In this document: piece by piece, positions 5,733-62,028 of the stretch
How positions within the stretch are numbered: position 1 is the first letter of the stretch
How the letters are laid out: every line of letters begins with the position of its first letter
Source: a virus
Virus record (IMG/VR): IMGVR_UViG_3300025652_000067
Coordinates: 1-62,028 of that record
Length of the DNA: 62,028 nucleotides
Strand: one strand, 5' to 3'
Made by a program: the position numbers and the translations under genes
Notes under the pieces: generated by a model
The model's input: the letters and a program-made list of their open reading frames with translations, nothing else
Told to the model about the DNA's origin: nothing
Databases searched by the model: none

Positions 5733-8648
5733 TTATATTTTTGATTTTAAATCTTCTACTTCTGCCTTAAGCTCTTGTATTGATTTTATTAATAATGGTA
5801 CTACTTTACTGTAATCTACACCCTGCATTTCTTCTCCGTCTTTTTCACCTGAAACTGCATCTGGCAATACATCTTGTAACTCATGAGCCATAACTCCATA
5901 AGAACTAGAGTTATCTGCTTTCCATTTAAAATCGTACACAGGTATTTTAGAAATCATATCTAATCCTGCAAAATCTTGTAAATCTTCTTTTAATCTATAA
6001 TCAGAAGATGTGGCATATACTGTAGATGAACCACTACGAGTTATGCTACCAATTGAAGTTCCAGCAGCATTAGAAAAAAGAATTAATCCTGTATTTGTTG
6101 AATCATCTTCTATTGATATTCCATAAGTAAAATTACCACCAGCTGCGTTATTAGAAATTTTTAATGCTGCACTTGTTGTATTATCTATGTCTGCATTTTG
6201 TATTACACCATTACTATCTATTGTTAACCTTGCTGTGTTATTTGTGTTAAGTACTAATGATGAATCAGAATCAATAATTAGTTTTTCTCCTGTATCTGCA
6301 TACTGTATATACGCTCTTTCATTTGTTGTTTGATAAAAAGACAATTTAGGATTCCCCGTGGCCGAAGAATCAATTATTTTAATTTCTCCATTTGTTGTTA
6401 CATCTCCTGCAAAAGTCGCGTTTTGTGAAGTATCTAGGGTAAGAACTGTATTTTCCCCACTGGTTTTAAATGTCATTTTACCATCAGATGACATATTGAA
6501 ATCATCTCCAGTATCCGCATATTGTATATAAGCTTTTTGACTTCCATTTTGTCTCCAGTCAATATAAGGGCTACCAGTTGCCGCTCCATCTATATGAAGT
6601 ATATTTGTAATTCCCACATTCCCTGCAAAAGTTGCGTTACCAGTTGTGTGGTCAAGTGTAACCGCGTCTACAACACCCTCTTGAGTTATGTATAATTTAC
6701 CATTTGGTGCTGAACTAAACCTCCAAGTTTTACCAGTTGTAGATGTTGTGTTAGCGAGAAGTAACAAAGGATTAGTGCTTGATAACGTTACATTACCTGC
6801 AAAAGTTGCATTACCAGAACTACTAATATTAAAAACTTCAGTTCCTGTAATAGCATCATCGAGCATTCTAATACTAAATGATGGTGAATCAGTTGAACCT
6901 GCTCTTAAACCACCAATAGCAACTCCATAATTATTAGTTGTAGAAGTTCCAAAAAACATATTTGTAAATCCTCCAGAATCTGTCTGTGCAGATGGATGTA
7001 ATCTTAAGAAACAATCTCTATCAAATTGAGTAGTTTGTTGTGGGTGTTGAATTTCAAATCTTGCAGTTGGCGAAGTAGTTCCAACACCTACGTGTGACCC
7101 ACTACCATCAATATAAATACCACTACCAGGAGTAGAATTAGCTCTAATGTCTAAGTCATTATAAGTTGATGCTGAATTAGAATAACCTAAAAGCTGAGCA
7201 GCTGTAGTATTGTTTCCGTTTATAGCTACACCTGTGTTATTTGATGTGTCAAATGACGCTGCATATATATCACCACTATCTACATTTAGTTTCCAGGTAG
7301 TAGGATTAGCCGTTCCGATACCTACTTTGCCTGATTGATTTAAACGCATTGCTTCCGAACCATTTGCGTTAAACTTTATGCCATCGCTACTTGAACCATA
7401 TATTCTTGCATTACTATTACCAAAATTGATACCTTGATTATCTTCAAAAAGTACAGACCCCGATAAACCAATATTTCCTGTTACAGCTAATTTTTGACCA
7501 GGACTACTAGTTCCAATACCTACATTACCATTTACGTCTATTGTCAGTTTATTATTTGTAGATAAATTAGTAGAAGATGAAATTTTAAATTTATCAAGAT
7601 CATTATTATCTATTCCTAATCTCCATCTTCTTACAGTTGAAAGTAAGAAAGATAAAGCAGCATCACCAGTACCATCTTGTTCTATAGTAACCCCAGCTGT
7701 TGTGTCATCATCTGAGTTATTTTGATAAACATGTAGTTTTGCAACAGGACTACTAATACCAATACCTACGTTACCACCATTAAAATAAGAATAGCCATTA
7801 CCAGTTATATAATTAGTAACTGTTCCACCTGATCCTCTTACTAATACTAAACCGTGACCATTAGCGTCATTACCAATATTAAATGTTCTAGTTCCAGCTG
7901 CATTTTCAGATCTAAAAGTATCTCTCCCATTAGCTAAGTTTCTTACAGCAATAACTCCGGAACTACTGTCTCCAGTCACATCTAATTTATAAACAGGCGA
8001 TGAAGTTCCTATTCCAACGCTACCCGCACTAGAAGATGTTAAATATACATTAGAACCACTAGATCCAAGTTGTGATATACCTGTTGCGTCTAAAGTTCCT
8101 GATACTTGTAGTTTAGAAGATGGACTAGTAGTTCCAATACCCACGTTACCATCAGATTTAATTGTCATTTTTGTACTAGGCGCAGTAGATGTTGATACGT
8201 GAGTTGTTTGAAAAAACAAATCCGATGATCCATTATCTAAAGCACTTCTAATACCTTGTATTTTTGCATTATAAAGTGATGTAGTTGCAGAGATAGATGA
8301 AGCAAAAATAATTTCACTACCTCCACCAGGGTTATTTGATCCATTATTAGATAAAAATATAAATGGTTGAGGTGAGCTAGAATAATCAGTAGCAATTTGC
8401 AACTTTGCTGTAGGAGTATTAGTTCCTATACCTAATCTATTATTACTACTATCCCAGAAAAATTCATTGCTTCCTTCCAAAGAAGAGGCTGAGTCAAAAT
8501 ATGAAACCTGACCTGTGTTTCCCACAGCAAAGCTTGTGAAAAAGTTTGCGGGAGTTATCTGAATATTGTCGGCTCCATTGTAGCCTACTATGTGGCTAAG
8601 GGAAGAAGCGCTGGTTTGTGTTATAAATTGAGAGAACTTTATTGCCAT
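5733..8648 (-). CDS. Tail fibre/spike with VGIGT repeats and S74 intramolecular chaperone
   Basis: 971 residues. The first about 45 (MAIKFSQF...SHIVGYNGADNIQITP) are shared with the next two fibre genes and are probably the virion anchor. The body has many copies of NVGIGT(S/T)SP and NATFAG, typical of long beta-helical fibres. The C-terminus is a peptidase S74 (endosialidase-type) chaperone: SSDYRLKEDL holds the Ser and Lys of the self-cleavage dyad five residues apart. YGVMAHELQDVLPDAV, VDYSKVVPLL and a terminal coiled coil (IQELKAEVEDLKSKI) follow. The chaperone assists trimer folding and is then cut off. The fibre likely binds the host receptor. Confidence 0.9.
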   Translation of the reverse strand: MAIKFSQFITQTSASSLSHIVGYNGADNIQITPANFFTSFAVGNTGQVSYFDSASSLEGSNEFFWDSSNNRLGIGTNTPTAKLQIATDYSSSPQPFIFLSNNGSNNPGGGSEIIFASSISATTSLYNAKIQGIRSALDNGSSDLFFQTTHVSTSTAPSTKMTIKSDGNVGIGTTSPSSKLQVSGTLDATGISQLGSSGSNVYLTSSSAGSVGIGTSSPVYKLDVTGDSSSGVIAVRNLANGRDTFRSENAAGTRTFNIGNDANGHGLVLVRGSGGTVTNYITGNGYSYFNGGNVGIGISSPVAKLHVYQNNSDDDTTAGVTIEQDGTGDAALSFLLSTVRRWRLGIDNNDLDKFKISSSTNLSTNNKLTIDVNGNVGIGTSSPGQKLAVTGNIGLSGSVLFEDNQGINFGNSNARIYGSSSDGIKFNANGSEAMRLNQSGKVGIGTANPTTWKLNVDSGDIYAASFDTSNNTGVAINGNNTTAAQLLGYSNSASTYNDLDIRANSTPGSGIYIDGSGSHVGVGTTSPTARFEIQHPQQTTQFDRDCFLRLHPSAQTDSGGFTNMFFGTSTTNNYGVAIGGLRAGSTDSPSFSIRMLDDAITGTEVFNISSSGNATFAGNVTLSSTNPLLLLANTTSTTGKTWRFSSAPNGKLYITQEGVVDAVTLDHTTGNATFAGNVGITNILHIDGAATGSPYIDWRQNGSQKAYIQYADTGDDFNMSSDGKMTFKTSGENTVLTLDTSQNATFAGDVTTNGEIKIIDSSATGNPKLSFYQTTNERAYIQYADTGEKLIIDSDSSLVLNTNNTARLTIDSNGVIQNADIDNTTSAALKISNNAAGGNFTYGISIEDDSTNTGLILFSNAAGTSIGSITRSGSSTVYATSSDYRLKEDLQDFAGLDMISKIPVYDFKWKADNSSSYGVMAHELQDVLPDAVSGEKDGEEMQGVDYSKVVPLLIKSIQELKAEVEDLKSKI

Positions 8649-8651
8649 ATC

Positions 8652-10949
8652 TTAATGTACTACTTTTAATAAATCACCGGTTCTGTAAAAAGCACCAGTC
8701 GTTAATCCCGCACTAATTGCCGCAGCGTTATCTGCATGTTCTGCTAAACCTACTACTGTTAACTTAGCTGTAGGACTAGTAGTACCAATACCTACGTTGC
8801 CTGAATCCCTTAATATTGTTAACTTGTCAGTTGGAACACCAACACCTGTTGCTATATTAAATTTATTAGTTGAACCATTGTAGTACAGATAAGCCCCAAC
8901 TTGCATAGGTACCGATGAAGTACCTTCTGTCATATAGATACCGTTATTTACCGCCCCTGTATTTGAATTTAAAATAATATTTGCACCTAAAGTATCTTCT
9001 ATATGTAATTTACTATCAGGACTACTAGTTCCAATACCTACGTCTCCGTTTGATAAAATAGTCATAGCTGTATTAGTTCCATCAACTATAAACTTTTGAC
9101 CAAAACCTGTTTGAGCTTGCTGTTTTAAATAATCACTTTCAAAATATGAATATGCTTTTGTTACGGAACCTATTGTATAAACAACTCCACCTGAGTAGGC
9201 TGCTGTTCCGTTTAAACTTAGCCAACTAGCTGCTCCCCCTCCTGATTGAGGATTAGTAGTCCCAATACCTACATCACCTGTACTATTAATACGCATTCTT
9301 TCTACATTGCTCGTATTGAACTTTATATTTGCTGCAACTTCATTATCAATTTCAATATCTCCAACATCTCCATTTCTAATTATAATTCCTGATGAATTTG
9401 CACCTGTATTTCTAAAATATGTAGTTCCTTTTATATTGTCCATAAAGAAATGACTTCCATTATGTTCAAGAGTTGCATCTGCATCTGTTCCAAACCTTGC
9501 TTTAACTTGGTCAGGGTGTTTAGTGTGGTCATTAAAAGTTGTACTACCTGCAAAAGTTATATTTCCATTTGTTGTGCTTCTATCAATACTAAAAACATTA
9601 GCAGCAGTACCACCAAAGGTTTTATCTAAATATAAATCAGCATTAGAATCTAATCTGAAACTATAATAATCAGTTGACCCTGCACCCAAAACTAAACTTC
9701 CATCAGCCATAGGTGTTGAACCACCTAAACTAGATTTTCTTATAGTTGCACTACCTGCAAAAGTTGCATTACCAGCAGCATTTAAAGTTAATCTAGCCGT
9801 ATCATTAGTAATTAATACAAAATCATCACTTGATGTAGTACCAAAATACACTGGGCCATCAGTAGATTGATAAGACCCAAATACAGAGCTTCCTCTTGTG
9901 CTTCTAAGTATATTACCCCCAGTTGGTATCATTTCTATCATATAACCATTAGCAAGAGTTGCTCCTCCCATAACAATACTACCTGCAAAAGTTGCTGAAT
10001 TGTCTGAGCCATTTAAAGTCATTAAAGAATTTCCATCATAATCTTTTATACCTAAAGTATTAGTTCCTGGCTCAATTTTCCAATATTGATTTGCAACAAA
10101 ACTATCTATTCTTAAAGCACCTGCCGCTGCTACTGCATTATTTCCTAAATGAAGTGTGTTTTGTGGGTTAGTATTTCCAATACCTACATTGCTGTTAAAA
10201 TATGATGTGGCAGTTCCAATAACAGCTTGCGCAGAATTTAAACCTCTAAATGTAGCAATAGTGCCCGATGTGTTACCTCTATTAAAAGTAGATTGTCCAT
10301 TGTCAACATATAATTTAGTGCTAGGACTACTAGTTCCAATTCCAACGTTGCCCCCGCCGGCAGAAGTAAGTAATACATTAGACCCCCCTGTTCCTAGCTG
10401 TGTGATGCCTGATGATGCTAGTGTTCCAACAACATCAAGAGTTGTCCCAGGACTACTAGTTCCAATTCCAACGTTACCACCTGATTGTATGGTCATTCTT
10501 ACACCTGAACTACCATGTTCTTTAATTTGTAAATCTGAATTTACACCAGTTATCACTGGGTTAAAAGCCCAACCTCTGTTTGGGTACGCAGCGTCTTTTA
10601 TTCCTAAAAACAAAGATTCATCACCGTTGTTTGCGAAAACACTTAGCTCTCCGTGAACAGTTTGATTTCCTTGTGATCCGACTGTGTATTTGTTAACTTG
10701 TAATTTACCAAGCGGACTAGTAGTTCCAATACCTAATCTTTTATTTGAGTTGTCCCAGGAAAAATCATCATCTCCAAGTAATGAAGTTGTGCTACCAAAA
10801 AAGGGTACTTGTCCGGCTGTACCCGTTACAAAACTTGTAAAGAAATTATTAGGTGTGATTTGTATATTATCCGCCCCATCATAACCAACAATATGGCTCA
10901 TCGTTGATGCACTAGTTTCTACTACGAATTGTGAAAATTTTATTGCCAT
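8652..10949 (-). CDS. Tail fibre, MAIKFSQF family, without S74 domain
   Basis: 765 residues. The N-terminal anchor (MAIKFSQFVVETSAS...DNIQITPNNF) is nearly identical to both neighbours. The body has repeated VGIGT(S/T)SP and FAGS motifs and IDG/YFESD strands. Instead of a chaperone it ends in a short module, EHADNAAAISAGL...AFYRTGDLLKVVH, also found at the end of 10953-13130. The three-base gap to the next fibre, and the sequence around the stop/start (TTAAGATATGGC on the minus strand), are repeated at 10950. It is probably an alternative receptor-binding fibre made from the same duplicated gene. Confidence 0.85.
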   Translation of the reverse strand: MAIKFSQFVVETSASTMSHIVGYDGADNIQITPNNFFTSFVTGTAGQVPFFGSTTSLLGDDDFSWDNSNKRLGIGTTSPLGKLQVNKYTVGSQGNQTVHGELSVFANNGDESLFLGIKDAAYPNRGWAFNPVITGVNSDLQIKEHGSSGVRMTIQSGGNVGIGTSSPGTTLDVVGTLASSGITQLGTGGSNVLLTSAGGGNVGIGTSSPSTKLYVDNGQSTFNRGNTSGTIATFRGLNSAQAVIGTATSYFNSNVGIGNTNPQNTLHLGNNAVAAAGALRIDSFVANQYWKIEPGTNTLGIKDYDGNSLMTLNGSDNSATFAGSIVMGGATLANGYMIEMIPTGGNILRSTRGSSVFGSYQSTDGPVYFGTTSSDDFVLITNDTARLTLNAAGNATFAGSATIRKSSLGGSTPMADGSLVLGAGSTDYYSFRLDSNADLYLDKTFGGTAANVFSIDRSTTNGNITFAGSTTFNDHTKHPDQVKARFGTDADATLEHNGSHFFMDNIKGTTYFRNTGANSSGIIIRNGDVGDIEIDNEVAANIKFNTSNVERMRINSTGDVGIGTTNPQSGGGAASWLSLNGTAAYSGGVVYTIGSVTKAYSYFESDYLKQQAQTGFGQKFIVDGTNTAMTILSNGDVGIGTSSPDSKLHIEDTLGANIILNSNTGAVNNGIYMTEGTSSVPMQVGAYLYYNGSTNKFNIATGVGVPTDKLTILRDSGNVGIGTTSPTAKLTVVGLAEHADNAAAISAGLTTGAFYRTGDLLKVVH

Positions 10950-10952
10950 ATC

Positions 10953-13130
10953 TTAATGTACTATTTTTAAATCGTCTCCTGTTCTGTAAACATCTCCCAC
11001 TACTAGTCCTCCTGCTAAAGCCGCTGTGTTATCCGCATATTCTGATACGCCTGAAATTCTAATACCTGACCCAATTGTCCTAAGTTTTTCTACGTCATTA
11101 TTATATAAAACAACAGCATCATTTTCAAAAAAAGAAGCAAATCTCTTACCACTACCATAAGTTTGAAAATACATATTAGCAGCTGCTCTTACATACAAAA
11201 TACCTGTTCCTGCTTCATCAATAAAGGAATTACTACCATCGTGATATATTTGTAAATCTCTAGAACTACCTATATTTAGTTTAACATTATCTATAAACTT
11301 TGCTCTTTTACTAAATACAGTTTCTACGTCACCACCATCTAACCTAAAATATTCAGTAACACCACCAGAACCATCATCACAGAAAAATATAATATCACCA
11401 TCATCGTGTTTATTACTAATGTAAAAATCACCAGTACTGTTTTCAATAAGTGAATTTGTACCATTGTGATAGATTTGTAAATCAGCAGCGTCTCCAAAAC
11501 AAACTCTACTTCTATCTAAAAAACGAGTAAATTTATTACTTCCATCAGCAAGACTTCCGTCTAATAAAAAGTATACGCCTGTCCCACCAGAGCCATCATC
11601 ACAACTAAAAATAATATCAGCATCATCTGCACTGTTTCTAATAGTTAAATTTCCTGTAAAATTGTCTATAGTAGTATCACCACTAAAATGATACATTTCA
11701 AAATTACCGCTTGAACCTAACTGTAAACTTACTGCATCAGACATTCTAAGTCTTTTATCAAACCTAGTTAAAACACCACCGCCATCTAAATAAAAATATG
11801 TAGCTGTTCCACCAGAACCATCATCACTTTTGAATATAATATCAGCATCATTTGATTTGTTAACTATATTAAAATCACCTGTAAAATTTTGTAGAGTAAC
11901 ATCAGTCCCATTGTGGGACATATTAAAATCTCCTGAATCTCCAAGTTCAATTTGTACACTATCTAAAAATGCAAAGTTTTTACTTGCTATAACTTTAGTA
12001 GCACCACCGTCTAATCTAAAATATTCAGCAACACCTCCAGAACCATCATCTGATCTAAATATTATATCTGCATCATCAGCAAAATTATCAATAAGTAAAT
12101 TACCTGTATTATTTCTAATAATTGATTTTGTACTATCGTGATATATTTCTAAATCATTACTATCTCCGAATTTAGCTTTTGCATTATCAATATGTTTTGT
12201 ATCTCTAGAAAATTTAGTTTGTCCCGCACTACCATCAATAGTTATGTAGTTTGCTATAGTACCACTATTTGTAGCTTGAATATATATTCTGTCATTATTA
12301 CCCTCGCTTCTTAAATATATGTCGCTAGTTGTAGATGTAATATAATTGCTATTATTACCATCGTGATATATTTTTAAATCATTACTTGTACCAAACTGTG
12401 CATATACTTGATCTAAATGTTGTGTGTTCCTGCTAAAAATCGTTTCACCTGCAGAACCATCAATTTGTATATAGTTTGTTATTCCACCAGATCCGTCATC
12501 TGACCTAAATATAATATCTTTGTCATTTGCAAAATTTTGTATATATAAATCTCCTTTTAAATTTGATGCAAATCCATTATTACCATCAAAGCCTAAATTA
12601 AAATCACCACCACTTGTTGAACCAAGTCTTAAAATTTTATTGTCTCCTAATTTTATATCCCCTGCAACCTCTAATTTTTCACTAGGGGTACTCGTTCCAA
12701 TACCTACGTTGCCTGCATCAGTTATACGCATACGTTCAGACCCAGATGAGCTAGTGGCAAATACCATATCGTCTCCAGAAGCGCTTAAATGTGCTTCACC
12801 AGTATTATCTTTTAATATTATGCGGGCCACGCTGTCTGTACTTTGAAATCTAGCTACATTGTTAGTTGTACCTGAATTTACATCTAATTTAACTGTAGGT
12901 GAAGAAGTTCCAATACCTAATCGCTTATTAGTATTGTCCCAGTAAAAGCCGCTATCACCAGTAACTCCCGTAGTATCGTAGAACAATACTTGTCCGGCTG
13001 TGCCTGTTAGAAGGGAATTTAAAAAGTTAGTTGGGGTTATCTGAATATTATCCACTCCATTATAGCCCACAACATGACTAAGTGTAGAAGCATCAGTCTG
13101 AACTACAAATTGAGAGAACTTTATTGCCAT
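10953..13130 (-). CDS. Tail fibre, MAIKFSQF family, with DDGSGG repeats
   Basis: 725 residues. Same anchor as its two neighbours, then one VGIGTS region, then six to seven degenerate repeats of about 70 residues. Each unit carries FGxSxDLxIYHDG, a DADIIF core, DDGSGG and YFxLDGG. DDGSGG appears five times. Such IYHDGxNS repeats are common in marine phage fibres. It ends with EYADNTAALAGGL...VYRTGDDLKIVH, the same C-terminal module as 8652-10949, and lacks S74. The repeats offer sites for recombination that would change fibre length. Confidence 0.85.
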   Translation of the reverse strand: MAIKFSQFVVQTDASTLSHVVGYNGVDNIQITPTNFLNSLLTGTAGQVLFYDTTGVTGDSGFYWDNTNKRLGIGTSSPTVKLDVNSGTTNNVARFQSTDSVARIILKDNTGEAHLSASGDDMVFATSSSGSERMRITDAGNVGIGTSTPSEKLEVAGDIKLGDNKILRLGSTSGGDFNLGFDGNNGFASNLKGDLYIQNFANDKDIIFRSDDGSGGITNYIQIDGSAGETIFSRNTQHLDQVYAQFGTSNDLKIYHDGNNSNYITSTTSDIYLRSEGNNDRIYIQATNSGTIANYITIDGSAGQTKFSRDTKHIDNAKAKFGDSNDLEIYHDSTKSIIRNNTGNLLIDNFADDADIIFRSDDGSGGVAEYFRLDGGATKVIASKNFAFLDSVQIELGDSGDFNMSHNGTDVTLQNFTGDFNIVNKSNDADIIFKSDDGSGGTATYFYLDGGGVLTRFDKRLRMSDAVSLQLGSSGNFEMYHFSGDTTIDNFTGNLTIRNSADDADIIFSCDDGSGGTGVYFLLDGSLADGSNKFTRFLDRSRVCFGDAADLQIYHNGTNSLIENSTGDFYISNKHDDGDIIFFCDDGSGGVTEYFRLDGGDVETVFSKRAKFIDNVKLNIGSSRDLQIYHDGSNSFIDEAGTGILYVRAAANMYFQTYGSGKRFASFFENDAVVLYNNDVEKLRTIGSGIRISGVSEYADNTAALAGGLVVGDVYRTGDDLKIVH

Positions 13131-14530: not shown

Positions 14531-14990
14531 ATCAACAATCAGAAACAACTACGACAGAAAAGAACCTACTAATGATTATTTAAAATACTGGAGAGTAATT
14601 AGGTATTGGGTAAAAGCAAAATACGGACTGACTACTCCAGATCTTGAAATGTTATTGTTCTTATATAGCGAACAACTATTTAATAAAACAGACTTTAAGG
14701 AATACGAAGAGCTTATGTCTTGGGACGTGAATCGTTTTGATAGAATGCTGAGAGACGGATGGATTCATGTATGGAGAAAAAGAAAAGGCAATCAAGCTAC
14801 CCTCTATGAACTTACCTATAAGACAAGACGAATTATAGATACTATTTATAAAAAGTTAAATGGAGAGGAGATTTCAGAAAGAAATCCTCTGTTCAACAAA
14901 AATGTATCTTACACCGACAAGGTATATCGTAATGCAATTAAAAAAATAAATGAATCTACAAAACAACTACAACATCACGCTCCTGAATAA
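14517..14990 (+). CDS. Winged-helix (MarR-like) DNA-binding protein
   Basis: 157 residues from a TTG start (TTG ACA ACT ATT). No ATG lies near the beginning of the frame. It reads YWRVIRYWVKAKYGLTTPDL, then EMLLFLYSEQLF, then LSWD-type FDRMLRDGWIHVWRKRKGNQ, LYELTYKTRRIIDTIYKKLN. Helix-helix-wing spacing with the basic RKRKGNQATLYELT wing fits MarR-type regulators. It could control the early-late switch. It is the only clear regulator-like gene here and lies next to the divergent promoter. Its 3' end overlaps the groES gene tail to tail by 35 bases. Confidence 0.7.
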   Translation: MTTIKSTIRNNYDRKEPTNDYLKYWRVIRYWVKAKYGLTTPDLEMLLFLYSEQLFNKTDFKEYEELMSWDVNRFDRMLRDGWIHVWRKRKGNQATLYELTYKTRRIIDTIYKKLNGEEISERNPLFNKNVSYTDKVYRNAIKKINESTKQLQHHAPE

Positions 14991-15213
14991 TCGTAAGCGG
15001 TTCGTCTTGTAGTAATATTTTATGTCCTGCAGCTTTATCATAGTATATCAGGTCATCTTCATTAATGACCTCTACATTGTTACCTACTTTTAATACTAAT
15101 CCTTTTTTGTATCTATAGGTATCTACATCTTGTGAGGATAGTAATAACCCGGAATCTGTTTTATATTCCTCTACTATCTCTCTTACTACTATGTATTTAT
15201 TTACTGGTTTCAT
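14956..15213 (-). CDS. groES: Co-chaperonin GroES
   Basis: 85 residues, somewhat shorter than the usual 95-97. KPVNKYIVVREI opens the fold. The segment YKTDSGLLLSSQ corresponds to the mobile loop, with LLL in place of the IVL tripeptide that binds GroEL. GLVLKVG then matches G-x-V-x-x-VG, DDLIYYDKAAGHKI the next strands, and IIQERDVVVVL the C-terminal strand. It caps the GroEL ring. Together with the phage groEL 120 bases upstream it would let the phage fold its own proteins, probably capsid or fibre subunits. Its start overlaps the 43-residue ORF by 17 bases. Confidence 0.85.
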   Translation of the reverse strand: MKPVNKYIVVREIVEEYKTDSGLLLSSQDVDTYRYKKGLVLKVGNNVEVINEDDLIYYDKAAGHKILLQDEPLTIIQERDVVVVL

Positions 15214-15328
15214 GCATTCTTTCTTTGTTGTAAACTATATACCCATGTTTCTCCAACATCTCTATAGCTTTGTTAAGTTCGTTTTGTTTTCTTCGATATG
15301 ACTCGAATATTTCGTTATATATTGGCAT
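15197..15328 (-). CDS. 43-residue helical ORF between groEL and groES
   Basis: ATG at 15328-15326, stop at 15199-15197. Product MPIYNEIFESYRRKQNELNK, AIEMLEKHGYIVYNKERMHE, TSK. It is mostly amphipathic helix. It starts 7 bases after the groEL stop region and overlaps groES by 17 bases, so it is packed as a real gene would be. Unknown function. It may be a small adaptor of the chaperonin or an unrelated passenger. Confidence 0.6.
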   Translation of the reverse strand: MPIYNEIFESYRRKQNELNKAIEMLEKHGYIVYNKERMHETSK

Positions 15329-15335
15329 CTTGTTA

Positions 15336-16931
15336 TTATTTATTATCGTATGTTCTCGCTAATGTTACTATTGCATTCGTACTTAATATCGTAGTTGCAA
15401 CAGATACTGCATTAATGAGCGCATTCTTTGTTACTTTCAATGGGTCTATAATACCCATACTATATAAATCACCAAATTTTTGATTCTTTACATCATAACC
15501 ATTTCTTGCATCTAAAATAAACTTGATGACATTATCTTCGTTTTCCCCAGCGTTTCTTAAGATTTGTTTACACGGAACCGAAAGAGCGTCTTTCAAAATC
15601 TTAACGCCTACTGATTCCTCTTTGCTTTCACCCTGAGTTGTTAATTCTTTGGATAATCTAAGTAGTGGCACTCCTGCTCCTGCTATTATCCCTTCTTCTA
15701 GTGCGGAACGCACCGCACATACCGCGTCATCAACGCGGTCAAATTTTTCTTTTTGCTCCACATCAGAGTTCCCTCCAACATAGATTACACCAATCCCGCC
15801 GCTTAGACTCGCTATACGTTGCAAGATAAAATCTTTTTCTGACTTTATTTTCGTATGCTTGTGTTGCTCCCATAACTCCTCAACTCTTTGAGGTATCTCC
15901 GCCACCTCATTGTTGTTTCTTATAATGATGGTATTGTCTCTACCTACTATCACTTTGGCAGCATGACCCAAGTCCTCCATACTAATCAACGACAAGTCAT
16001 CTCCTGTTTTCTCGCTGAAGTATTTCGCACCGACCGCTAGCGCGATGTCGCTCATTAGTTCGTGTTGCTTGTAACCAAACTGTGGAGGCATTATGTTACA
16101 AATTTTCAAACCGTTACGAACGACATTTGCTGCTAGGGTATTGACGACATTGTTATGGCAATTTCCAACTATCAGAAGTTTGTCGCCGTTACTGATAATA
16201 GGTTTCAATATTTTCTCAATACTAAGTATGTTATTAATCTCTTGATCAACTACTAGTACCTTCACGTTCTCAAGCACACACTCGTCCTTCTTTTGATTGT
16301 TCACAAACAGGTTCGATGTATATCCCCTTTCAACGCGGATCCCCTTTGTCACCTCACTATACGTGTTATGACCTTGTGAGTTCTCAACCGTGACAAGTCC
16401 GTCATGACCTACTTTATTATAGGTATCGTATATTATTTTCCCAATCTCTTTGTCATTGTTTGATGAGATGGTTGCTACGTCAAGCAGTCTTTTCTTAGAC
16501 AATTTCTTAGACTGTTTCTCTAGCCTTTTAATTACGTGTGAAGTGTGTTTGTTGATTTCACGTATGACAACCGTCGGATTTACCGACATATCTATGTATT
16601 TCTCACCCGCCTCAACTAATGCCTCAGTCAATACTATGGCGGTGGTTGTACCGTCCCCGGCAGAGGTTGCTGTACGATCCGCAGCTTCCTTCATCATCTT
16701 CACCGCAAGGTTCTCCACAGGATCCAACAAGTCAATGGATTTTGCAACCGTGACTCCGTCCTTAGTAACCGTGATTCCGTGCGTGTGTGTACGTGATTCT
16801 ATTAATACTGTCTGACCTCTTGGGCCCAATGTAGACTTGACAGCTTTTGAAATTTTAGCGATTCCGCTAATTAGTTTGTTTCTACCCTCAGAGTCAAAAT
16901 GTAACTCCCTCGGGGTGTATCCTTGTTCCAT
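15336..16931 (-). CDS. groEL: Chaperonin GroEL
   Basis: 531 residues, close to the bacterial 540-548. Conserved parts are STLGPRGQTVLI, TKDGVTVAKSI (Asp of the ATP pocket), AGDGTTTAIVL (nucleotide loop), LSGGIGVIYVGG, and RVDDAVCAVRSALEEGIIAG, in which the Asp equivalent to E. coli Asp398 is kept. The C-terminus (ARTYDNK) lacks the GGM tail of bacterial GroEL. It would form ATP-driven folding rings in the host cytoplasm. The DNA is visibly richer in G and C than its AT-rich flanks, suggesting separate acquisition. A consensus promoter lies 27-57 bases upstream. Confidence 0.95.
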   Translation of the reverse strand: MEQGYTPRELHFDSEGRNKLISGIAKISKAVKSTLGPRGQTVLIESRTHTHGITVTKDGVTVAKSIDLLDPVENLAVKMMKEAADRTATSAGDGTTTAIVLTEALVEAGEKYIDMSVNPTVVIREINKHTSHVIKRLEKQSKKLSKKRLLDVATISSNNDKEIGKIIYDTYNKVGHDGLVTVENSQGHNTYSEVTKGIRVERGYTSNLFVNNQKKDECVLENVKVLVVDQEINNILSIEKILKPIISNGDKLLIVGNCHNNVVNTLAANVVRNGLKICNIMPPQFGYKQHELMSDIALAVGAKYFSEKTGDDLSLISMEDLGHAAKVIVGRDNTIIIRNNNEVAEIPQRVEELWEQHKHTKIKSEKDFILQRIASLSGGIGVIYVGGNSDVEQKEKFDRVDDAVCAVRSALEEGIIAGAGVPLLRLSKELTTQGESKEESVGVKILKDALSVPCKQILRNAGENEDNVIKFILDARNGYDVKNQKFGDLYSMGIIDPLKVTKNALINAVSVATTILSTNAIVTLARTYDNK

Positions 16932-18640: not shown

Positions 18641-18760
18641 ATGATCATGAAAAATAAAACTTTACTTAACGGAATTATTAACGGCTTATTAATGGGTTTA
18701 GCCTCGCTGTTTGTGTGCGGTCTATTGCTAATAGTTAGCCACTTAATAAGGGTAATTTAA
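18641..18760 (+). CDS. 39-residue single-pass membrane peptide
   Basis: ATG at 18641, TAA at 18758-18760. An internal ATG at 18647 is equally possible. Product MIMKNKTLLNGIINGLLMGL, ASLFVCGLLLIVSHLIRVI. One hydrophobic helix covers most of it. Early membrane peptides of phages often alter host envelope proteins, but no function can be assigned. It follows the previous gene by 7 bases and is followed directly by the tRNA-like hairpin. Confidence 0.55.
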   Translation: MIMKNKTLLNGIINGLLMGLASLFVCGLLLIVSHLIRVI

Positions 18761-18762
18761 AA

Positions 18763-18802
18763 GATAAAATGGTTCTCGAGGGGGTTCGATTCCCCCTTTA
18801 TC
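18763..18802 (+). other. tRNA 3'-half-like element (T-arm plus acceptor-like stem)
   Basis: GATAAA (18763-18768) pairs with TTTATC (18797-18802). Inside lies a 5-bp stem GGGGG/CCCCC (18780-18784 and 18792-18796) with the 7-base loop TTCGATT, which fits the T-loop consensus TTCRANY. Only 11 bases (18769-18779, TGGTTCTCGA-like) replace the D and anticodon arms. It looks like the 3' part of a tRNA or a minimal tRNA mimic. It could be an old attachment core, a processing signal or a regulator of the gene at 18826. No full tRNA can be built from the upstream bases. Confidence 0.55.
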
Positions 18803-18825
18803 ATCTAACAATTAAAATTAACATT

Positions 18826-19059
18826 ATGGCACAATTAACCAAAATTATAACTCAATTGGAAAATTACATTGAAAAAATCAAAGATGAGATTTACGATAGA
18901 GAGGAACAAGCAGACAACCAAACCGATAAATGGCAGGGTTGGGAATATAGCGACAAAGGAAGTTGTTATATATCTAAAACTGAAGCCCTCGACGAATTGG
19001 TTGACCTTTTGTTTGAGGCACAATATAAAGCGGAACAAATTAAAAAAGGAGATTACTAA
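18826..19059 (+). CDS. Early-operon acidic protein, unknown function
   Basis: 77 residues from the ATG at 18826, preferred because the longer frame would run through the tRNA-like hairpin. MAQLTKIITQLENYIEKIKD forms a coiled-coil-like helix, then WQGWEYSDKGSCY and ALDELVDLLFEAQYKAEQIK. Charged helical protein. No domain recognised. Confidence 0.65.
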   Translation: MAQLTKIITQLENYIEKIKDEIYDREEQADNQTDKWQGWEYSDKGSCYISKTEALDELVDLLFEAQYKAEQIKKGDY

Positions 19060-58125: not shown

Positions 58126-58157
58126 CAAATTTATGTATTATTATTTACTTTAACAAA
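58126..58157 (-). promoter_or_regulatory. Promoter of the virion assembly operon
   Basis: On the minus strand TTTG (58157-58154), 20 bases, then TAAATTTG (58133-58126). Both elements fit the Bacteroidetes consensus. It overlaps the last codons of the fibre gene (58145-59560) and lies 29 bases before the ATG at 58097. It likely drives head and packaging genes. Confidence 0.7.
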
Positions 58158-59560
58158 TCTAATTCAGCTGATAATTCTTGTATTGCTTTTACTAGTATTG
58201 GCACTAGTTTACCATAGCTCATTTCTAGTTTGTCAGGATTTTCGTCGTATATTAATCTTAAAGTGTCATTATCTAATGATTTAACTTCTTGAGCTATAAA
58301 TCCAAAGTCTTTTTTACCTTTATTAGAATTTATTAATTCTTTTTCTATATCAGTAATGTCACCATTTTCATCAATCTGCTGCTCTGTTATTGTTTCACTT
58401 CTGTTGTCCCATACAAATTTACGAGGTTTTAATGCATTCACGAAATTTAATCCCGTGTCTAAATCTTCTATATCTTTTTTATCTCTTTCATCAGATAAAG
58501 AAGTTATACTTGTTACAGCTGCCCTTATTACTGTAATGCTAGAATTACCTAAAGTTATTTCATTTGTTACAGTAGCGCTTGAAGCTTGAGCGTTAGTACC
58601 TATAACAATATTATTGGTCCCGGTTGATAAAGAACTACCAGCGCTATATCCTATACCTATATTTGCATTAGAGGTAGTTGTTGATGCGTTTTGACCTTTT
58701 AATGCGCTTTCACCTAACGCAACGTTTCCACTTCCTGTTTGCTCTGCGCTTAAACTCCAAAAGCCTATTGTTGTATTATTCGACCCCGTTGTTAAAGCGT
58801 CTCCGGCAAAGTATCCACCCATAGCAACGTTTCTTTGTCCGCTAGTTAATACTTTTAAAGCACTTTTCCCTATACCTACATTCCAATTACCAGATACATT
58901 ATTTGAAGCTAAAGCATCGTCTCCTATTGCTACGTTTTCACTACATGCAGTAGCTGCTCCTAATGCATCAGTACCAATTGCTATGTTTCTATCTCCAGAT
59001 GTTAAAGCATCTCCAGCATTTGCTCCCATAAATACATTTTCAGCACCACTACTTAAATTAGCTCCTGCTTGAGAACCTATTGAAACATTTTTAGAATTTC
59101 CTGATTGAGCGTTATGGCCTACAGCTACGTTGTCATTACCAGAGGGGGAAAGTGCTGCTCGGTATCCAATACCGACGTTTCTATCTTCAGTATTGTTACC
59201 TAGCCCTGCTTCATAACCAATAAACACACATTCATCACCCTCTCCATCAAATCCTCCAACCATTGCTTTGTAACCTATAGCAGTATTAGATACACCTGTA
59301 GTGTGGTATTGACCAGTGTCAATTCCTAAAAACGTATTTCCTTGTGGGTTTCCTGATAAAAACTGCGGAACATAGCCAGCGTATAAAGATTGTGTGTCTA
59401 TTAAAAATGGAAATCCTCCTCCGCCTGCTGACACAGTATCTAGTATATCTTGCATTGTGTATGATTCTCTGCTTGCATTTGCATAAGCAGAACCTCTTTC
59501 AAGTGTACTTACCGTAGATGATAAAGTGTGAAATTGCTGCCCTGTGGGGATTATTGCCAT
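58145..59560 (-). CDS. Fibre with YadA-like repeats and S74 chaperone (471 residues)
   Basis: The anchor MAIIPTGQQFHTLSSTVSTL, ERGSAYANASRESYTMQDIL is shared with the next two genes. The middle has at least ten 15-20-residue repeats such as NVAIGDDALASN, NVGIGKSALKVL and NVAMGGYFAGDAL, like the heads of trimeric YadA adhesins. The C-terminal SLSDERDKKDI holds the Ser-x4-Lys dyad of peptidase S74. GFIAQEVKSLD, MSYGKLVPILVKAIQ and a coiled coil follow. The chaperone should fold the trimer and be released. Likely a receptor-binding or branching fibre. Confidence 0.9.
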   Translation of the reverse strand: MAIIPTGQQFHTLSSTVSTLERGSAYANASRESYTMQDILDTVSAGGGGFPFLIDTQSLYAGYVPQFLSGNPQGNTFLGIDTGQYHTTGVSNTAIGYKAMVGGFDGEGDECVFIGYEAGLGNNTEDRNVGIGYRAALSPSGNDNVAVGHNAQSGNSKNVSIGSQAGANLSSGAENVFMGANAGDALTSGDRNIAIGTDALGAATACSENVAIGDDALASNNVSGNWNVGIGKSALKVLTSGQRNVAMGGYFAGDALTTGSNNTTIGFWSLSAEQTGSGNVALGESALKGQNASTTTSNANIGIGYSAGSSLSTGTNNIVIGTNAQASSATVTNEITLGNSSITVIRAAVTSITSLSDERDKKDIEDLDTGLNFVNALKPRKFVWDNRSETITEQQIDENGDITDIEKELINSNKGKKDFGFIAQEVKSLDNDTLRLIYDENPDKLEMSYGKLVPILVKAIQELSAELDLLK

Positions 59561-59566
59561 AGCATA

Positions 59567-61087
59567 TTATTTATCTTGTTTTTTATCTAATTCAGCTGAT
59601 AAGTCCTGTATCGCTTTTACGAGTATTGGCACTAGTTTACCATAGCTCATTTCTAATTTATCAGGGTTTGCATCGTATATTAATCTTAAGGTATCATCGT
59701 CGTGAACCTGAACTTCTTGTGCAATAAATCCAAAATCTTTTTTGTTTTTATTATCACTGTAATGTTCTGTTTCACTTTCTACATTACCCTCGTCATCTAA
59801 TACAACTCTTTTTTCTGCTCTATTGTCCCATACAAATTCCCTTGGTTGTAGTTTACTTACAAAATCCAATCCGTATGTAATGTCTTTTATGTCTTTTTTA
59901 TCTCTTTCATCAGATAATGAAGTTATGCTTGTTACAGCCGCTCTTATGACAGAAACACTTGAATTACCTAAAGTTATTTCATTGGATACTGTAGCGGATG
60001 ATGGCTCTGCGTCATACCCTACAATTGTATTGTTAGCCCCTGTAGTTAAATTACCTCCAGCTTGAGCTCCTAACATTGTGTTTTGAGCTCCTTCTGTTTG
60101 TATACCTGCACTAAACCCTACTGCTACATTATTATCCGCTCCTGCTGCTCCAAACCTCAAAGTTCTGGCTCCCACACCAGTGCTATAATTTGTATTACCA
60201 CTTTGACATGATTTCGCTCCAATATTTACATTGTTCTGTCCTGAACTTATACCGTTACCTGCCAAACTTCCCATGGCTGTATTGTCTCCTCCTGATGTAA
60301 GAGTGCCAAGACTGCTCCAGCCTACTGCCGTACAACTGTCGGCGCTTGTGATAGCATCCATAGAGGCAACACCAACTCCTACATTATACTCTGCAGCGCT
60401 TAATGTACCGGTAGTAGTATCTCCAACTTTAAGAGAGTTTGCAAAATTTGTTCCCCCTAAAATAAAAGGAACTCCTCCGCCCCCAGCAGCTTCTTCTATT
60501 ACATTACCACTAGCATCAACTGCTAGAGTATAAGCTGCTGTACCTGTATAAGTACCACTTCCGTAATCTTTAAATTCAACTTGTTTATGAAGATTTACAC
60601 TTTCTGATCCTGCAGTTGTAACAATTTCAAGCATAGGATTATTACCTGCTGCTCCAATTCTCCAACCAAATCCAGCCCAGTTATATAAAAATCCAAAACC
60701 ACCTCCATCATCATCCCAACCGAATGAAACTTTATTAACATCATCTTGAGTAATTGCGTATTCTTGATCTCCACTAGTTACAGTTGCTGGTCTGTTTATA
60801 ATAAATCTATACCCATCCGTAAATTTTATTTGCGCTAAGCCATCACCGGGGACAAAAGTGCTTACTATCAAGGGCGAATCTCCAATAGTATTAGAATCTG
60901 TAAAAAAAGGAATTGTTCTAGCTGTACCAGATCCGTCAATTGCTCCTCCTGTTGCTGATATAGTGTCTATTATATCTTGCATTGTAAATGATTCTCTGCT
61001 TGCATTTGCATAAGCAGAACCTCTTTCAAGTGTACTTACCGTAGATGAAAGGGTGTGAAATTGTTGTCCTGTAGGTATTATTGCCAT
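59567..61087 (-). CDS. Fibre with YadA-like repeats and S74 chaperone (506 residues)
   Basis: Anchor nearly identical to 58145-59560. An extra domain of about 120 residues follows (LAQIKFTDGYRFIINRPATV, DDVNKVSFGWDDDGGGFGFL), absent from the 471-residue neighbour. Then come YadA-like repeats (NVNIGAKSCQSG, NVAVGFSAGIQ, NTMLGAQAGGNL) and an S74 end with SLSDERDKKDI. The DNA at both ends is very similar to the neighbouring fibre genes, so recombination between them is easy. Probably a tail or head fibre with a different binding part. Confidence 0.9.
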   Translation of the reverse strand: MAIIPTGQQFHTLSSTVSTLERGSAYANASRESFTMQDIIDTISATGGAIDGSGTARTIPFFTDSNTIGDSPLIVSTFVPGDGLAQIKFTDGYRFIINRPATVTSGDQEYAITQDDVNKVSFGWDDDGGGFGFLYNWAGFGWRIGAAGNNPMLEIVTTAGSESVNLHKQVEFKDYGSGTYTGTAAYTLAVDASGNVIEEAAGGGGVPFILGGTNFANSLKVGDTTTGTLSAAEYNVGVGVASMDAITSADSCTAVGWSSLGTLTSGGDNTAMGSLAGNGISSGQNNVNIGAKSCQSGNTNYSTGVGARTLRFGAAGADNNVAVGFSAGIQTEGAQNTMLGAQAGGNLTTGANNTIVGYDAEPSSATVSNEITLGNSSVSVIRAAVTSITSLSDERDKKDIKDITYGLDFVSKLQPREFVWDNRAEKRVVLDDEGNVESETEHYSDNKNKKDFGFIAQEVQVHDDDTLRLIYDANPDKLEMSYGKLVPILVKAIQDLSAELDKKQDK

Positions 61088-61095
61088 GATTAATT

Positions 61096-62028
61096 TTATT
61101 TATTTTCTAATTCTGTTACTTTAGCTGATAAGTCCTGTATCGCTTTTACTAATACTGGAATCAGTCTACCATAACTTGCTTCTAATTTTTCCGGATTAAC
61201 ATCATATACTAATTGAAGAAAATCATCGTCTACTGTTTGAAGTTCTTGAGCAATAAACCCAACGTCTTTACTTCCTTTTTTTGAACTTACTACTTCATCA
61301 TATTCAATCACTTCTTCTTCAATAACATTGCCTTCCTCATCAACTTGTTTTGGAATACATGTTTTAATTGTTTGCTCAGGTCTATTGTTCCATACAAATT
61401 TTCTAGGTTTTAGCGCCATTATTGTTTCTAGTCCTTTGTCTAAATCAACTATGTCCGTTTTATCTCTTTCATCAGATAAAGAAGTTATAGAAGTAACTTG
61501 ACATCTAAGAGTTGTTATACTTGAGTTTCCTAAAGTAATTTCATTTGAAACAGCCGCGCCGCTCGCATTAGCAAAGTTTCCTATTACCACATTGTTGTCT
61601 CCTGACAAAGAATTAAATGCTGAGCTCCACCCAACAGCTATATTTTCGTTACCTGTAATTCCGTATCCAGCTTGATGTCCCATAGCAACATTTTTTTCTC
61701 CACTTTGAAGTGTATTTAAAGATGTATTTCCTACAGCAACATTTGCGTTTGCAGCTAATAAGTTATATAAAGATGAACTTCCTATTCCTACGTTGTTATT
61801 AGTACCAGTACAACTATATAAAGCTAACTTCCCTATTCCTGTGTTGAGGTTTCCAGTATCGCAATTTTTTCCTGCTTCACTTCCCACAAATACGTTACCA
61901 TTACCTGTTGTTATATCCTCCCCTGCTTTATACCCTATCCCAGTATTTTCACCACCTAAAGCAGATCTACTAATATACCTTAACGCAAAATTACCAACAG
62001 CCACACATTTTTCAATATTATCGGAACC
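61096..62028 (-). CDS. Fibre with S74 chaperone, C-terminal part of the gene that crosses the ends
   Basis: Continues in frame from the piece at 1-624. Contains NVFVGSEAGKNCDTG, NTGIGKLALYSC, NVGIGSSSLYNLL, NVAVGNTSLNTL repeats and an S74 chaperone with SLSDERDKTDI (Ser-x4-Lys dyad), DVGFIAQELQTVDDDFLQLV, ASYGRLIPVLVKAIQDL and a terminal coiled coil. A Cys occurs in two repeats, unusual for this family. The methionine at 62004 is internal, not the start. The joined protein is about 470 residues. Confidence 0.9.
   Translation of the reverse strand, partial: GSDNIEKCVAVGNFALRYISRSALGGENTGIGYKAGEDITTGNGNVFVGSEAGKNCDTGNLNTGIGKLALYSCTGTNNNVGIGSSSLYNLLAANANVAVGNTSLNTLQSGEKNVAMGHQAGYGITGNENIAVGWSSAFNSLSGDNNVVIGNFANASGAAVSNEITLGNSSITTLRCQVTSITSLSDERDKTDIVDLDKGLETIMALKPRKFVWNNRPEQTIKTCIPKQVDEEGNVIEEEVIEYDEVVSSKKGSKDVGFIAQELQTVDDDFLQLVYDVNPEKLEASYGRLIPVLVKAIQDLSAKVTELENK
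61885..62028. repeat. Terminal direct repeat, right copy
   Basis: Second copy of bases 1-144. The one mismatch changes Asn (here) to Tyr (left copy) in a fibre repeat. This may be a population variant or a sequencing error. Confidence 0.93.

Follow-up and report, generated by a model that had tools for sequence, protein, structure and literature searches.

The element and its locus

The window, a stretch of 62,028 bases that makes up the virus record IMGVR_UViG_3300025652_000067, carries near the start of a plus-strand early operon a short sequence at 18763-18802 that has the shape of the upper half of a transfer RNA (tRNA) and belongs to an apparently undescribed family of small RNAs. The sequence reads GATAAA-ATGGTTCTCGA-GGGGG-TTCGATT-CCCCC-TTTATC and occupies the gap between two small open reading frames (ORFs) (Table 1). 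Part of its linker, (A)ATGGTT, is like the D-loop of tRNA (A-R-U-G18-G19-U), with the D-stem absent. The tail, T-CTA at 18804-18807, comes close to the CCA end of tRNA and stands 12 nucleotides (nt) plus one after the T-loop. The original prediction for this locus described a stem of 6 base pairs (bp), an 11-base spacer, a perfect 5-bp T-stem and a consensus T-loop, all of which are borne out by the sequence and by a covariance model, R1. It missed the D-loop-like linker, the near-CCA tail and the fact that the element is one of a multi-copy family found in multiple phages.

Table 1. Parts of the element and flanking reading frames in the window
Feature	Position	Strand	Basis or remark
37-amino-acid membrane-like ORF, upstream	18647..18760	+	stop codon 18758-18760, separated from P1 by 2 nt
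Acceptor-like stem P1, 5' strand, GATAAA	18763..18768	+	sequence; pairs with 18797-18802; P1 covariation in 48 copies
Linker ATGGTTCTCGA (11 nt)	18769..18779	+	sequence; linker logo over at least 180 copies
T-stem, 5' strand, GGGGG	18780..18784	+	sequence; T-stem pairs 99% paired across copies
T-loop, TTCGATT	18785..18791	+	sequence; logo, in part imposed by the search patterns
T-stem, 3' strand, CCCCC	18792..18796	+	sequence; T-stem pairing across copies
Acceptor-like stem P1, 3' strand, TTTATC	18797..18802	+	sequence; P1 covariation
tRNA positions 72, 73 and C74-T75-A76 (A, T, CTA)	18803..18807	+	sequence; C-D-A enrichment in at least 180 copies
77-amino-acid ORF, family unknown, downstream	18826..19059	+	homologues in L005/L006 without the element

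Folding of the window element alone gives z = -0.78 in single-sequence RNA folding; the T-arm hairpin is retained at minimum energy, but AUGGU pairs with AUCAU in place of the 6-bp stem. Single-sequence folding is thus uninformative, and the case for the element rests on comparison. A grammar scan of the window returns the element as its sole convincing match, against 0.1 matches per mononucleotide shuffle; the second match is weak, lies on the minus strand and is without the consensus T-loop. Model R1, which was built from 16 other copies with the window copy left out, recovers the latter at 18760-18807 with 49.6 bits and an E-value of 6.6e-11. No tRNA gene, meaning a cloverleaf with a D-stem and an anticodon arm, is found by ARAGORN either in the window or where the family copies lie, and no Rfam 15 family reaches its gathering threshold in the window. 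At loose E-values Rfam again yields no family, the returns being sub-threshold fragments in L004, L043 and L069 (L and G numbers are our labels), such as part of the T-arm of transfer-messenger RNA. The locus has no blastn match in the phage database, and no description of such an element was found in open-licence papers.

A covarying family in phages

Copy counts come from pattern scans and are lower bounds, giving at least 180 distinct copies in at least 120 loci. By exact search of IMG/VR the element is also present in a sister phage (L003/L004), and it recurs in L002 with unrelated genes on either side. When the pattern allows gaps and holds only the linker and T-loop constant, more copies appear, whose stems are very different and still pair. 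Many phages hold several, with 10 in a 7-kb contig (L043), 8 each in G015 and G021, and 4 to 5 in others. Pattern matches in L007/L013/L025, L017, L022 and L027 were discarded as false, having no stems.

Both stems are hypervariable between copies yet complementary. In an alignment of 48 distinct copies, pairing is seen in 89.5% of pair cells, compared with 53.8 +/- 1.5% after shuffling, and two-sided changes number 222 against 64. The covariation score of 0.860 contrasts with 0.176 for shuffled alignments and with at most 0.19 when the partner strand is slid. The 48-copy alignment had been fitted to the model, and an unbiased test of the outer stem was therefore added, based on 152 pattern sites whose outer stem lay outside the pattern, with the 20 upstream bases shuffled as the control. 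Outer stems of 5 bp or more are present in 88% of the sites that have a T-stem and in 6.8% of the shuffled controls. The mycobacteriophages Cuke and Fowlmouth alone give a score of 0.826, compared with 0.150 when shuffled. The original prediction was to be given up if the pairing proved unconserved in relatives; the result is the opposite, with stems that covary across copies.

The nearest relatives show how the element is inherited. A second copy in the sister phage (L004 596-634) is fully compensated in both stems (GGTGT/ACACT and GGGCGG/CCGCCC) and sits in a gene-element-gene block that the window lacks, while in the close relatives L005/L006 the element is missing together with the genes preceding it. 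This absence and the extra block together indicate that copies come and go with gene cassettes.

The same variability bears on the origin of the element, which had been suggested to be the 3' end of a host tRNA captured by recombination, forming an attachment core; a decayed phage tRNA gene is a variant of this idea. The T-arm does resemble that of a tRNA, but the stems differ between copies within one phage with their pairing kept, which is not the behavior of a decaying gene. Moreover, the virus record has no integrase or resolvase of the tyrosine or serine recombinase type, and no match within 2 mismatches was found in 395 whole genomes from the class of G016, a Sphingobacteriales metagenome-assembled genome (MAG). 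An attachment site in a tRNA gene was rejected on these two grounds, and an origin by capture or decay is highly improbable.

The phages that carry the element have hosts, known or suggested by relatives, among the Bacteroidetes, marine cyanobacteria, Mycobacterium and others. They include the cyanophages Syn5 and S-TIP37, with a weaker variant in P-SSP7, as well as Cuke and Fowlmouth, which infect Mycobacterium smegmatis, and one contig that was binned with a Lachnospiraceae MAG. A scan of 84,980 bacterial and archaeal genomes for the exact consensus gave 18 stretches, with the structure present only in L039 and L043, contigs of 4.2 and 7.0 kb, and of 295 genomes from the class of G016 scanned with the model, 3 had matches. 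This scarcity makes the element essentially a phage feature. Two of the model matches in that class (L463/L465) lie on one contig, contig 17 of G153, which is possibly a prophage. A model check of the flavophage relatives of the window found no full copy, and T7 has no match to model R2. Matches to the model in Cellulophaga phi38:1 were set aside, as they look like the T-arms of ordinary tRNAs.

Gene borders and tRNA-like anatomy

Gene borders in unannotated contigs are ORF calls, with which the annotation of Cuke agrees. Copies have the sense orientation and are found between genes of the same direction, an mRNA-end location like that of mitochondrial t-elements, and 5 of 143 fall inside a same-strand ORF of at least 100 amino acids. 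In 76 of 102 copies the upstream stop codon has its last base somewhere from -20 to +6 relative to position 1. A second hairpin starts within 14 nt of C74 in 35%, compared with 8% after shuffling and 18% in an upstream control. The arrangement is most regular in Cuke, where nearly every long gap from gp035 to gp058 consists of a stop codon, about 8 nt, the element, A-C-G, a second hairpin, the ribosome site AGGATGGA and ATG, and copies in Fowlmouth occupy the corresponding gaps. Two annotated Cuke (L461) genes, gp043 (8430-8711) and gp044 (8662-8994), overlap element copies at 8434-8481 and 8717-8764, and their annotated starts are probably too far upstream.

This placement can be set against the proposal that the element is a cis regulator of the gene that follows, acting on its translation or its transcription, for instance through an elbow that binds a tRNA-binding protein or the ribosome; the original prediction had raised translational control of the gene at 18826. 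The next start codon lies a median of 43 nt after position 72, and a copy precedes the major capsid gene in Syn5, S-TIP37 and, as a variant, P-SSP7. The distance to the downstream start varies widely, however, whereas that to the upstream stop is tight, and the leader CAATTAAAATTAATATTATG recurs at several L004 genes with or without the element. The ATG of the linker begins a reading frame of 60 codons or more in just 15 of 159 copies and was rejected as a start codon for the family. Downstream regulation is accordingly doubtful. Still less probable is a decoy acting in trans, in which tRNA-like elbows would titrate host RNase P, the CCA-adding enzyme or tRNA-modifying enzymes. Elbow mimicry and the several copies in some phages are in its favor, but many phages, that of the window included, have a single copy, and copies are strictly tied to gene borders.

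Numbered as a tRNA, the element has a linker consensus of A-A-U-G-G-U-U (logo of at least 180 distinct copies), although the conservation of linker and T-loop is inflated, as the GG and the T-loop belonged to the search patterns. The consensus resembles the D-loop core A14-R15-U16-G18-G19-U20. In tRNA, G18 and G19 dock into the T-loop (PMC4810234); the linker would be the counterpart of the D-loop and may dock in the same way. The 3' side lies outside the search patterns and consists of 12 nt after the T-loop, one discriminator and then position 74. There, C74 is present in 61%, C75 in 5% and A76 in 58% of at least 180 copies. C-D-A occurs 113 times and CCA 8 times, counted at two registers (offsets 14 and 13), and C.A is found in 121 of the 180 copies listed. 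A 12-bp stacked helix closed by the T-loop is present, with 6+5 paired bases and the tail at the 12-nt register in the window, and 11-13 nt with the tail at 12+1 across the family. The element therefore corresponds to the upper half of a tRNA and ends in a tail that is close to CCA but seldom CCA itself.

In some copies, from P-SSP7, S-RIP2 and Cuke, an extra hairpin lies within the linker. Two gaps in Cuke (L461 10527-10725 and 13974-14096) contain larger versions, in which a long additional arm follows the D-loop-like linker and precedes the T-arm; in form these stand midway from the minimal element to a tRNA. The T7-like cyanophages P-SSP7 (L185 960-1039, 2560-2608 and 20629-20683), S-RIP2 (L184 39620-39639) and L186 (3224-3240) have tRNA-like relatives of the element whose linker contains an additional hairpin. 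Several of these T7-like cyanophage elements are followed by ATTG and then another hairpin, and one in P-SSP7 stands just before the major capsid gene.

The anatomy also bears on explanations that need no tRNA enzyme. An intrinsic terminator was rejected, as the window hairpin is followed by TTTATCATCTAAC and the family tail is N-C-D-A, not a run of U. It is also possible, though unlikely, that the element is a 3'-end stabilizer or a roadblock to ribosomes or exonucleases that shields the upstream coding sequence or insulates genes, with no cleavage by tRNA enzymes. Such a role would suit the close approach to stop codons, overlaps included, and the frequent second hairpin downstream. A plain hairpin would be enough for it, however, and the invariant T-loop, the D-loop-like linker, the 12-bp ruler and the C-D-A tail with CCA avoided are left unexplained.

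Elsewhere in the window, GroES-like and GroEL-like genes, recognized by eye and from synteny, are adjacent at 14956-16931, an arrangement shared with two related phages, MW202828 and Flavobacterium phage elemoE. Several long paralogous fibre-like genes lie at 5733-13130 and 58145-62004, some of which end in an apparent endosialidase-chaperone-type C-terminus (SDERDKxDI).

A candidate punctuation mark for phage transcripts

The reading we favor is that the element is a minimal tRNA mimic that marks polycistronic phage mRNA for processing by RNase P, RNase Z or both, and on the present analysis this is probable. It was among the options of the original prediction and is the one to which the evidence points. 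The analysis establishes the structure with its covariation and geometry, the near-CCA tail, and where and how widely copies occur, while docking of the D-loop-like linker into the T-loop, recognition by either enzyme, cleavage itself and any gain for the phage we infer. The hosts of the phages concerned have only universal machinery in common. The freedom of the sequence, the T-loop elbow, the 12-bp ruler, the near-CCA tail and this diversity of hosts all point to the enzymes of tRNA ends as the recognizers. The acceptor arm, the D-loop-like linker and the T-arm would fold into the 12-bp coaxial helix plus elbow known to tRNA-maturation enzymes, and by setting it directly behind stop codons phages would use it as a punctuation mark in polycistronic transcripts. 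Host RNase P may read the helix and elbow and be able to cut at the 5' edge. RNase Z grips the tRNA elbow (PMC4810234) and cuts after the discriminator, and the enzyme of B. subtilis is inhibited 1520-fold by CCA (PMC7479834). The element, like an RNase Z substrate, has no CCA after the discriminator, and because CCA is avoided RNase Z could cut there. Once the RNA is split, the upstream message would terminate compactly a short way beyond its stop codon, and the downstream message would gain a fresh 5' end, often capped or shielded by the second hairpin.

Several observations weigh against this reading. The RNase P signature is incomplete: U occupies position -1 in just 27% of copies and A in 49%, and A-U predominates over G-C as the first base pair. 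Avoidance of C75 of the RCC motif counts against a simple RNase P version. For RNase Z acting alone, the difficulty is that most such enzymes prefer a 5' end that is already mature (PMC7479834), and the conservation of C74 and A76 is unexplained by RNase Z. A cut at the 5' edge would also remove the upstream stop codon wherever this overlaps the stem, as it does in 20 of 102 copies. The window phage has one full copy and the L005/L006 relatives and flavophages checked have none, and the inflated conservation of linker and T-loop noted above belongs here as well. On balance, chances are about even that a widespread punctuation system exists, in which unrelated phages of Bacteroidetes, cyanobacteria, actinobacteria and others would have their transcripts split by host RNase P and RNase Z; the C-D-A tail would let the element be processed without maturation or charging as a tRNA.

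Should processing prove to be its role, a general route for dividing transcripts would be available to many phages beyond the T7/RNase III case, and that route would rest on machinery that every bacterial host must keep. The element would then also stand as the natural equivalent of the AT1 minihelix, add a new case of tRNA mimicry by DNA phages and supply portable RNA parts for splitting operons. Whatever the mechanism, the absence from Rfam of an RNA family with such a wide distribution and such strong covariation is a notable gap. Direct testing is possible in the laboratory phages Cuke (M. smegmatis) and Syn5 (Synechococcus WH8109), both of which carry copies.

The dividing role proposed here is familiar from other systems. 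RNase III hairpins of the early mRNA of T7 are intercistronic and divide a phage polycistronic transcript, although both the enzyme and the structure differ from those considered here. In animal mitochondria, tRNAs between genes serve as cutting signals in a punctuation that is alike in role but uses full functional tRNAs, whereas the phage elements are without the anticodon arm. Plant mitochondrial t-elements are tRNA-like, stand at mRNA ends, have no encoded CCA and are cut by RNase P and RNase Z to produce transcript ends (PMC11658184). Unlike them, the phage element lacks the full tRNA-like fold and tRNA homology, being the top half only, and has hypervariable stems and many uses per genome. 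Viral tRNA-like structures and MALAT1 mascRNA recruit tRNA enzymes by mimicry of the tRNA elbow (PMC4810234), but these belong to eukaryotic viruses or nuclei, are usually single and 3'-terminal, and contain pseudoknots or cloverleaf parts. A close structural parallel is the RNase P model substrate AT1/pATSer, which consists of acceptor stem, T-stem and T-loop and is efficiently cut by bacterial RNase P (PMC11143913, PMC11221534). AT1 is synthetic and has an RCCA end, whereas the 3' RCC(A) of such substrates is absent from the phage element (T-CTA in the window, C75 in 5% of the family), which is natural and has a D-loop-like linker where the other arms would be; the two share the same 12-bp coaxial ruler.
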